Part shown: positions 20,395-27,079 of the stretch, in pieces
Position numbering within the stretch: the stretch's first letter is position 1
How the letters are laid out: every line of letters starts with the position of its first letter
NCBI RefSeq assembly: GCF_003439925.1
Contig: NZ_QQRR01000001.1
Coordinates: forward strand, 124,001 to 188,000
DNA: 64,000 nt
Source: Haloprofundus halophilus
GTDB lineage: Archaea; Halobacteriota; Halobacteria; Halobacteriales; Haloferacaceae
Direction of reading: 5' to 3'
Position numbers and translations under genes: made by a program
Notes under the pieces: generated by a model
What the model was told of the DNA's origin: nothing
The model's database searches: none
The model's input: the letters and a program-made list of their open reading frames with translations, nothing else

Positions 20395-21138
20395 ATGGCT
20401 CGAATCAACGTGCTCGCCGACGACCTGGAGTTCGACGAACCGCTGCTCGTAGAGGGGCTTCCCGGTGTCGGACTGGTCGGGAAGATCGCCGCCGACCACC
20501 TCGTCGAGACGTTCGAGATGACTCACTACGCGAACGTCCACTGCGAGAGCATCCCGAAGGTCGCCGTCTACCGCGACGCCGACCGGAGCGTCCACCCGCC
20601 AGTCCGAATCTACGGCGACGCAGAGCGGGACCAGCTCGTCCTCCAGAGCGACGTGCCCATCTCGCCCGGCGCGGCCACCGAGTTCGCCGACTGCCTCGGC
20701 GACTGGTTCGACGAGATCAGCCTCACGCCCGTCTACATCAGCGGACTCCCCCGTGAGAAGGACGACGAACCCCCGGCGCTCTACGGCATCGGCACCGGCG
20801 ACGCCGCGTCGATGCTCGACGACGCCGGTATCGACGCCCCCTCGGAGATGGGACTCGTCTCCGGTCCGACCGGCGCGCTGCTGAGCTACGCCGTCGAGAA
20901 CGACCAGAACGCCGTCGGCCTCGTCGTCGAGTCCGACCCGCAGTTCCCGGACCCGGAGGCGGCCCGCGTCGTCGTCACCGAGGGACTCAACGCGCTCTCG
21001 GATGTGGCGGTGCCGACCGACGACCTCGTCGACCGCGCCGAGGAGATTCGAGAGGCCAAGCAGCGTCTCGCCCAGCGCCTTCAGAACGCCGAGAACGACG
21101 AGAGTTCGCAGGCGCAGCCGCTTCGGATGTATCAGTAG
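20395..21138 (+). CDS. PAC2-family proteasome assembly chaperone
   Basis: The 247-aa protein matches the PAC2/PbaB family: PLLVEGLPGVGLVGKIAADHLVE near the start, LVLQSDVPISPGAATEFAD, ISGLPREKDDEPPALYGIG, and VSGPTGALLSYAVE in the middle. Archaeal members help assemble the 20S proteasome. It ends with a coiled helical tail (VDRAEEIREAKQRLAQRLQNA) that would include a C-terminal binding motif in PbaB-type proteins. A hairpin-rich intergenic element starts 2 bp after its stop codon. Confidence 0.88.
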   Translation: MARINVLADDLEFDEPLLVEGLPGVGLVGKIAADHLVETFEMTHYANVHCESIPKVAVYRDADRSVHPPVRIYGDAERDQLVLQSDVPISPGAATEFADCLGDWFDEISLTPVYISGLPREKDDEPPALYGIGTGDAASMLDDAGIDAPSEMGLVSGPTGALLSYAVENDQNAVGLVVESDPQFPDPEAARVVVTEGLNALSDVAVPTDDLVDRAEEIREAKQRLAQRLQNAENDESSQAQPLRMYQ

Positions 21139-21139
21139 C

Positions 21140-21290
21140 GACCTTTTGCGCTGCGGGCGCGCTTCGCGTGCCCTCGGCAAAAGCTCGACCAAAAGCACAG
21201 CGTCACCCCCTCAGGCGCTCCGCGCCTTCGAGGGTTCCTCGGCCCGCTCGCTCGTTTCACTCGCTCGCGGTACGACGTCTCGTTGTGGCC
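21140..21290. repeat. Hairpin-rich intergenic element, copy A
   Basis: Directly after the PAC2 stop come, in order: ACCTTTTGCGCTGCGGG, a GC stem around CGCTTCGCG, CCCTCGGCAAAAG, ACCAAAAGCAC, the stem AGGCGC-TCC-GCGCCT (21213-21227), CCTCGGCCCGCTCGCTC and TCGCTCGCGGTAC. The same modules recur in the same order after dnaJ (26397 onward). CTTTTGC and GCAAAAG can pair to close the first stem. No coding frame is convincing. It looks like a recurrent haloarchaeal intergenic palindromic element; function unknown. Confidence 0.75.
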
Positions 21291-25091: not shown

Positions 25092-25114
25092 ACCAGAAAT
25101 CATAGATTTCTGGT
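25092..25114. terminator. Perfect 10-bp inverted repeat after dnaK
   Basis: ACCAGAAATC-ATA-GATTTCTGGT: a perfect 10-bp stem with a 3-nt loop, in the dnaK-dnaJ gap. It is AT-richer than its surroundings and not followed by a T tract. It may terminate or process the dnaK mRNA, or act as an operator for dnaJ. Confidence 0.5.
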
Positions 25115-25238: not shown

Positions 25239-26393
25239 ATGAGCGAGGACTTCTACGACGTACTCGGGGTGTCGCGCGACGCCGACGAGGACGAGATAAA
25301 ACAGGCGTACCGGAAGAAGGCCGCGGAGTACCATCCGGACGTGAGCGACGACCCAGACGCCGACGAGAAGTTCAAGAAGGTCAAGAAGGCCAAGGAGGTG
25401 CTCACCAACGACGAGAAGCGCCGGATGTACGACCAGGTGGGCCACGACCGCTTCGAGGAGGCCCAGAAACGCGGCGGCGTCGGCGGCGGGGGCGGTGGCT
25501 TCGGCGGCGGCAACCCCTTCGGCGGCGGGGGCGGCGGCGGCTTCGAAGACATCTTCAACCAGTTCTTCGGCGGCGGCGCGGGCGGCAACGGCCGCGGCCA
25601 GCAGAACCGCCCGCGGCAGGGCCGCAACCTCCGCACGAACGTGACGCTCGACCTCGAAGACGTGTACGAGGGGGTCACGAAGCAGGTGACCATCACCCGA
25701 CCCGAGCGCTGTTCGGACTGCGACGGCGAGGGCCACCCTGCCGACGCCGAGGCGCAAACCTGCCCCGAGTGCAACGGCCAAGGGCAGGTCACGCAGGTGT
25801 CGCAGACGCCGTTCGGTCGCGTCCAGCAGACGACCACGTGTCGGCGCTGCGGCGGCGAGGGCGAGCTGTACGACGAGACCTGCGCCACGTGCGGCGGTGA
25901 CGGCACCGTTCGCGAGGAGGCGACGCTCACCGTCGACGTGCCCGCCGGAATCCAGAACGGCCAAACGCTCCGGATGGAGCGCGAGGGTGCGCCCGGCGAG
26001 AATCGCGGCCCGAACGGCGACCTGCTCATCGATGTGCAGATTCGCCCGCACGACGACTTCGAGCGCGACGGCGACGACCTGCACTATCAGCACCCCATCT
26101 CGTTCCCGCAGGCGGTGTTCGGGTCGACCGTCGAGGTTCCGACGCTCGGCGGCAGCGTCGAGATGGATATCCCGGAGGGAACCCAGAGCGGCGAGACGTT
26201 CAGACTGAAGGGAAAGGGGATGCCCCGACTCCGCCGTCGCGGTGAGGGCGACCTCTACGTGCAGGTGCAGATCGTGACGCCCGAGCAGATGAACAAAGAG
26301 CAGCGCGAGGCGCTGGAAGCGTTCGCCGAGGCCGGCGGCGAGGAGGTCGACGTGAAGGAAGGCTTCTTCGAGAAGATCAAGAACTCCTTCTAG
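25239..26393 (+). CDS. dnaJ: DnaJ (Hsp40) co-chaperone
   Basis: The 384-aa type I DnaJ has a J domain with the HPD triad (EYHPDVSDDPD), a Gly/Phe-rich linker (GGGGGGFGGGNPFGGGGGGGFED), four CxxCxGxG zinc-binding motifs (CSDCDGEG, CPECNGQG, CRRCGGEG, CATCGGDG) and a C-terminal substrate domain with GKGMPRLRRRGEGDLYV. It stimulates DnaK ATPase. It stops just before hairpin element copy B. The long poly-Gly tract is stronger than usual. Confidence 0.97.
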   Translation: MSEDFYDVLGVSRDADEDEIKQAYRKKAAEYHPDVSDDPDADEKFKKVKKAKEVLTNDEKRRMYDQVGHDRFEEAQKRGGVGGGGGGFGGGNPFGGGGGGGFEDIFNQFFGGGAGGNGRGQQNRPRQGRNLRTNVTLDLEDVYEGVTKQVTITRPERCSDCDGEGHPADAEAQTCPECNGQGQVTQVSQTPFGRVQQTTTCRRCGGEGELYDETCATCGGDGTVREEATLTVDVPAGIQNGQTLRMEREGAPGENRGPNGDLLIDVQIRPHDDFERDGDDLHYQHPISFPQAVFGSTVEVPTLGGSVEMDIPEGTQSGETFRLKGKGMPRLRRRGEGDLYVQVQIVTPEQMNKEQREALEAFAEAGGEEVDVKEGFFEKIKNSF

Positions 26394-26396
26394 ACC

Positions 26397-26758
26397 GACC
26401 TTTTGCGCTGCGGGGTGGCTTCGCCACCCCTCGGCAAAAGTTCTCTTCGCGGTTCCACCGCGAAGGCTTAGCAGACGCGAAGCGTCTGCTCTCGGACCAA
26501 AAGCACCGTCAGAGCGGAGCTCTGACGAGCCCTCGTTCACTTCGTTCACGAGGACACCCGTCGCTCACTTCGAGACGGCAACGCCGTCTCTCCGTTCGCT
26601 CCTCGGCCCGCTCGCTCCCTCCGGAAGAGCCTCGCTCTTCCGTGCACCCGTTCGCTCCCTCCAGTCGCTCACGGGAATTCCGGTCGCTCGCGGTACAGAA
26701 CAGTCGTCTCGACCCCCCCGCGACCAACTTACTTGGAATTCGCCACCGAACCCTCCGT
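26397..26758. repeat. Hairpin-array intergenic element, copy B
   Basis: After the dnaJ stop the DNA holds a run of perfect inverted repeats, mostly with 3-nt loops: 26412-26430 (8 bp, loop TTC), 26445-26465 (8 bp, loop TTCCA), 26471-26489 (8 bp, GAA), 26508-26526 (8 bp, GGA), 26572-26590 (8 bp, AAC) and 26622-26642 (9 bp, CTC). Between them are the direct modules shared with copy A (ACCTTTTGCGCTGCGGG, CCTCGGCAAAAG, ACCAAAAGCAC, CCTCGGCCCGCTCGCTC, TCGCTCGCGGTAC). No coding frame fits. The next gene starts at 26759, so the element fills the whole 360-bp gap. Confidence 0.85.
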
Positions 26759-27079
26759 GTGCCCTACTCGAAGGTCAACTACCGCGACGTCGAACCGAAA
26801 GCCGACGGCATGCACTTCCTGCGCGACGCGCTCGACGCCGACAACCTCGGCGTGACGGTGCTCGACTGCGAGGCGGGCTGGTCAGGAATGGAACACGACC
26901 ACGGCGAGGAAGACCACGAGGAGATCTATCTTCTCGTCCACGGCGCGGCGACGGTCACCGTCGACGGCGTCGACGTATCGCTCGAACCCGGCGACGCCGT
27001 TCGGATTCCGCCGGATGCGACGCGGCAGATCAACGTCGGCGACGAGGACAGCACGCTCGTACTCGCGGGCGCACCGTAG
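26759..27079 (+). CDS. Cupin domain protein
   Basis: GTG 26759 (VPYSKVNYRDVEPKADGMHFL) gives a 106-aa single-cupin protein. The metal-binding pattern is visible: EHDHGEEDHEEIYLLVHG supplies His/Glu ligands of cupin motif 1, and EPGDAVRIPPDATRQI is motif 2 with its Gly-Asp turn, though the usual motif-2 His is replaced. The extra His/Asp/Glu run suggests a metal-rich site. It is 78 bp before the CobW gene and may be co-transcribed with it. Ligand and reaction unknown. Confidence 0.85.
   Translation: MPYSKVNYRDVEPKADGMHFLRDALDADNLGVTVLDCEAGWSGMEHDHGEEDHEEIYLLVHGAATVTVDGVDVSLEPGDAVRIPPDATRQINVGDEDSTLVLAGAP

Follow-up and report, generated by a model that had tools for sequence, protein, structure and literature searches.

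A palindromic element behind dnaJ in Haloprofundus halophilus belongs to an order-wide set of intergenic copies and may act as a two-way T-tract terminator

In the window, as the whole stretch of 64,000 nucleotides of Haloprofundus halophilus DNA analysed here is called, the gap between dnaJ, which ends at 26393 and whose product is 91% identical to Haloprofundus marisrubri DnaJ, and a cupin gene starting near 26759 on the same strand contains a hairpin-rich element beginning 2 nt past the dnaJ stop. The first-pass annotation of this DNA had stated that no gene fits the gap, in agreement with these gene boundaries, and had described six inverted repeats, five of them with 3-nt loops; all six are present, two of them reaching one pair further than described, and the 3-nt loop is common to all six. 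The features referred to below are the following.

25239..26393, plus strand: dnaJ, the gene preceding the element (open reading frame; TAG stop at 26391-26393).
26396..26695, plus strand: the whole element, CGACC to TCGCTCGCGGTA, about 300 bp; boundaries common to 16-19 genus copies and to the orthologous dnaJ sites.
26400..26440, plus strand: stem A (fold z -4.4).
26401..26404, plus strand: TTTT tract after ACC, the proposed dnaJ terminator, from the sequence and from its position behind stops in other copies.
26412-26430, plus strand: hairpin 1, the inner part of stem A (8 bp, 3-nt loop).
26436..26439, minus strand: first A-tract, a T-tract on the minus strand, from the sequence.
26445-26465, plus strand: hairpin 2, an optional module lacking in minimal copies (9 bp, 3-nt loop).
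26470-26490, plus strand: hairpin 3, optional, travelling with hairpin 2 and likewise lacking in minimal copies (9 bp, 3-nt loop).
26493..26502, minus strand: CGGACC box and second A-tract (26499-26502; a minus-strand T-tract), TTTTGGTCC, recognised from the order-wide signature.
26507-26527, plus strand: hairpin 4, a tail module found in some copies only (9 bp, 3-nt loop).
26531..26553, plus strand: imperfect palindrome CCTCGTTCACTTCGTTCACGAGG, accompanying hairpin 4, from the sequence and the copies.
26572-26590, plus strand: hairpin 5, a tail module (8 bp, 3-nt loop).
26622-26642, plus strand: hairpin 6, a tail module (9 bp, 3-nt loop).
26647..26675, plus strand: imperfect palindrome CCCGTTCGCTCC...GTCGCTCACGGG, past hairpin 6, from the sequence.
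26682..26695, plus strand: conserved right end GGTCGCTCGCGGTA, common to the copies and the orthologous sites.
21139..21272, plus strand: a second, minimal copy in the window, beginning at the stop codon of gene 20395-21138, without hairpins 2-3 and with a different tail.

The earlier opinion that such an array is not random DNA withstood comparison with shuffled sequence: perfect 8-9 bp triloop stems number six in 26397-26700 and 14 in the whole window, while among 5,000 dinucleotide shuffles of 26397-26700 there were none in 4,950, one in 50 and more than one in none. Folding as RNA pointed the same way on both strands (z-scores against shuffles of -4.2 on the plus and -6.1 on the minus strand), with z-scores of -4.1 to -4.8 for the individual hairpins; compared with the 4227 families of Rfam, the window gave no match above the gathering score. 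A further triloop hairpin, of 10 bp (ACCAGAAATC-ATA-GATTTCTGGT), lies at 25092-25114, between dnaK and dnaJ; a search of this dnaK-dnaJ gap in the relatives checked did not find the first seven bases of the hairpin with their flank.

The six hairpins decorate a smaller core, of which the T- and A-tracts, features that the first-pass annotation does not mention, are the key parts. The backbone runs in the order ACC-TTTT, variable stem A, AAAA-nnTsnACC-AAAA, hairpin tail and TCGCTCGCGGTA; in stem A an outer helix, CTTTTGC/GCAAAAG, formed by pairing of 26400-26406 with 26434-26440, encloses an inner helix identical with hairpin 1 (GGGGTGGC-TTC-GCCACCCC, 26412-26430). Read from the gene side, the plan common to the copies consists of a stop codon, a few nt, CGACC-TTTT-GCGCTGCGGG, stem A, CCCTCGGC-AAAA-GCT, the optional hairpins 2 and 3, CTCGGACC-AAAA-GCAC, a variable hairpin tail and TCGCTCGCGGTA. 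In minimal copies, such as the one at 21139-21272, which is absent from the first-pass annotation, hairpins 2 and 3 are lacking and the sequence reads GCAAAAGCTCGACCAAAAGC.

A search of the host genome (E <= 0.001) returned 19 places including the query, that is, 18 other, partial copies, the best of 222 bp at 88% identity; a match to the element was also found in 30 of 60 relatives, and in many other genera it is query bases 115-169 alone that match. Together with the order-wide sites described below, these copies uphold the idea of a defined genetic element. The proposal that the pairing and not the sequence is kept holds for hairpin 1 only: the frame hardly varies in sequence among the 16 genus copies aligned, nor do hairpins 2, 3 and 4, whereas in the inner helix of stem A six of the seven counted pairs are altered on both sides. 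Stem A thus covaries, with a score of 0.121, where the shuffles gave 0.047 and sliding the partners no more than 0.047; this result concerns the genus copies, the cross-genus alignment of stem A being too poor for a covariance model. In hairpins 2 and 3 the loop is found both ways (GAA and TTC) on unchanged stems, as if inverted in place, the difference setting copies L002 and L116 apart from the rest of the alignment.

A strict search for perfect stems in a T-stem-A arrangement yielded few sites, and the A-tract signature AAAANNTSNACCAAAA was therefore used to follow the element through the order. The site set that it defines, biased toward copies with intact A-tracts, covers 107 of the 146 genomes of the order, with a maximum of 45 matches in one genome; the host genome has 27, compared with 0 for the reversed control, which gave 14 matches summed over all 146 genomes. 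Outside the order the signature falls to background, equal to the control level. A relaxed pattern applied to 464 kb of the host genome recovered about a dozen elements, all intergenic, with one of them counted on each strand. In the named genera Haloprofundus, Halobium, Halobellus and Halosegnis the element lies right behind dnaJ; the signature is absent from the dnaJ loci of Halorubrum and from several others that were fetched. A distant blastn against plasmid and phage records gave no match. A signature scan of IMG/VR provides no sign of a viral origin, since among the matches listed in GC-rich contigs none has ACCTTT upstream, and L308 alone loosely resembles the element.

None of the 64 signature sites examined lies inside a predicted gene, which supports the suggestion of a genome-wide intergenic repeat; the gene calls used here and below are our own, based on codon usage, and not curated annotation. 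Of the 63 sites with both neighbours known, which are not independent when they share a genome, 34 are located between convergent genes (12-19% of gaps expected), 25 between co-directional genes, including 14 sites reversed relative to the two genes, and 4, one of them following a tRNA gene, between divergent genes (23-27% of gaps); the gap and gene baseline was drawn from the host genome alone and the densities from a 400-kb sample. In about half of the sites with a co-oriented gene the T-run starts 2-10 nt past its stop; three copies immediately follow a tRNA-Pro or tRNA-Leu gene, and a fourth lies downstream of tRNA-Val. At 36 of 40 sites the first T4 past the upstream stop has an ACC-like triplet in front of it, which is also the arrangement in the element, and at 23 of 39 no other T4 intervenes between the stop of the opposing gene and the element, while genes in general have a T4 within 60 nt in only 53 of 248 cases.

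The stems are concentrated around these tracts. Perfect stems of at least 6 bp occur between the T- and A-runs in 56% of sites (8% in shuffles) and in the 50 nt past the second A-run in 41% (8%), against 11% (8%) in a control 200 nt downstream. In the 50 nt preceding the T-run the figure is 9% vs 4% in shuffles (n=23), so near to the shuffles that the T-run of the upstream gene appears to have no clear hairpin ahead of it, stem A coming after; for the opposing transcripts, the tail hairpin is often found ahead of the first T-run.

The position and the T-tracts of the element, read from sequence, point to transcription termination. In Haloferax volcanii intergenic transcripts end at T stretches, and a T5C tract placed in a reporter stopped 95% of transcripts (PMC7237163); a hairpin is not strictly needed for U-tract termination in Archaea (PMC8716108). 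The element fits this description in that a tract of at least four T lies downstream on the coding strand, T4-T6 shortly past the stop, with no clear hairpin ahead (none being required before the tract); it differs in that the tract is joined to a stem that covaries, to opposing T-tracts and to a fixed box, together with hairpin modules, and the T4 of the dnaJ copy is shorter than the T5C assayed. We consider it probable that the element is one copy of an order-wide haloarchaeal family of gene ends, consisting of bidirectional T-tract terminators with modular hairpins. According to this model, transcription of dnaJ would end as a U-tract at the ACC-TTTT a few nt past the stop, with no preceding hairpin, the GC-rich stem A following; transcripts from the opposite side would be ended by a tail hairpin together with the TTTT-GGTCC after it and a second T-tract beyond, the opposing-strand RNA 3' ends forming at TTTTGGTCC / CTTTTGCC. 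RNA 3' ends would thus be set by the T-tracts, and the stems may assist termination or protect the ends. The element is not the general terminator, since most genes are without one, and the sites reversed relative to two co-directional genes count against the model.

Two other roles, in RNA stability and at the DNA level, are possible. It may be proposed that the hairpins form a 3'-UTR element stabilising or processing the mRNA, as a barrier to 3' exonucleases or as an RNase site, and not a terminator; the strong folding on both strands, the covariation of stem A and the placement right past stop codons are all compatible with such a role, which we nevertheless regard as improbable, given that the signature is used symmetrically, with an enrichment in convergent gaps, and that the T-run precedes stem A, so that a transcript ending at the T-run would not contain the hairpins. 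The same convergent bias, with the sequence-conserved nnTsnACC box flanked by two A-tracts, might instead indicate that the element acts at the DNA level where two genes converge, for instance by binding a protein or a topoisomerase; this reading leaves unexplained a T-run within 10 nt of many stops, or directly behind tRNA genes, and appears very improbable.

The behaviour of the element at a single orthologous site can be followed in the genus, where it is found directly behind dnaJ in all five Haloprofundus genomes; the site is thus occupied in relatives by an element of the same kind, and not by the unrelated sequence that would have spoken against a defined element. The types, stems and tails differ: a T4 type with hairpins 2-3 is present in the host genome and in G001 (in which hairpins 4-6 are absent), and a T5-T6 type with another stem A and without hairpins 2-3 in G002, G003 and G004, the right flank CTCGCGGTACAG being common to the four genomes with the cupin gene downstream. 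No empty dnaJ site was seen in the five genomes, the element being replaced instead; recombination between copies would explain this replacement and may also be the way in which modules spread. The hairpins would stay paired as their sequences change, and whole modules would be swapped between copies.

Such turnover bears on the proposal that the element is a non-autonomous mobile repeat (MITE, PATE or REP-like), inserted by a transposase favouring the sequence behind stops, with any termination effect secondary. The element is indeed dispersed, mosaic, short, non-coding and palindromic, tandem copies exist, and in Haloquadratum repeats without a transposase, PATEs among them, are common (PMC3119063); the occupation of the dnaJ site in all five species and the unusually fixed placement near stop codons and tRNA ends are at odds with mobility, as are ends without obvious terminal inverted repeats, and we judge this explanation unlikely. 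The MITE and PATE readings appear to fit poorly. Inspection by eye of the two ends, CGACC... and ...GCGGTA, showed no inverted repeat in common. An IS605/PATE origin found no support, neither element nor signature lying near the one Y1 transposase gene or the seven TnpB loci of the genome. The likeness to the PATEs, MITEs and SMRs of Haloquadratum (PMC3119063) is that of short, non-coding, palindromic haloarchaeal repeats; unlike them, the element has no nearby IS605-type genes, is fixed at gene ends and, at the one orthologous site compared, is replaced and not absent.

Bacterial interspersed mosaic elements (BIME/REP) are extragenic mosaics of short palindromic units beside gene 3' ends. The element shares this extragenic, palindromic, mosaic character and the location next to gene 3' ends, but its sequence is unrelated, its core is made of T/A-tracts, and no associated REP transposase was found; membership was discarded, the single Y1 gene having no element nearby. 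With bacterial bidirectional Rho-independent terminators it has in common a stem, T-tracts for both strands and the bias toward convergent genes, whereas the polarity is reversed: in place of the order A-run, shared stem, T-run, the element has its T-run before stem A and its A-run after it, so that it was not assigned to this class, and only the minus-strand tail hairpin with its T-tract resembles the bacterial order.

The usual account of termination in Archaea is of a bare U-tract helped by proteins, in which no defined structure takes part. The odds seem to us about even that the element represents an undescribed class of structured two-way haloarchaeal terminators, marked by the reversed polarity, with a T-tract ahead of a covarying stem and opposing T-tracts past it, the fixed nnTsnACC box, cassette exchange at gene ends and species-by-species gain and loss of hairpin modules; no description of it as a family was found in the open-access literature, to which the search was confined. 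If correct, this would provide an annotatable class of haloarchaeal terminators recognisable from sequence across the order, marking the 3' ends of genes and tRNAs in many genomes, and genetic work would gain compact two-way terminators. The way in which the element is replaced at a fixed site, its stems changing in sequence yet still pairing, would also make a good case for studying small-repeat turnover.

Two minor observations concern other arrangements of repeats. The intergenic segment G000:C1:711871-711918 carries between T- and A-runs a different palindromic repeat, TTTTTAGGACGGCCTAAAAAGCC...TTTTTAGGATTGCCTAAAA, in which inspection by eye shows no kinship to the element. Tandem duplication of the element, with a period of 96-103 bp, is seen at some convergent sites (L176, L178, G000:C1:562372-562512 and 720969-721132), the unit taking in 35-87 nt adjoining the element on the side of the converging gene, apparently the 3' end of that gene; pairs and triplets of the element at similar spacing also occur in other genera.
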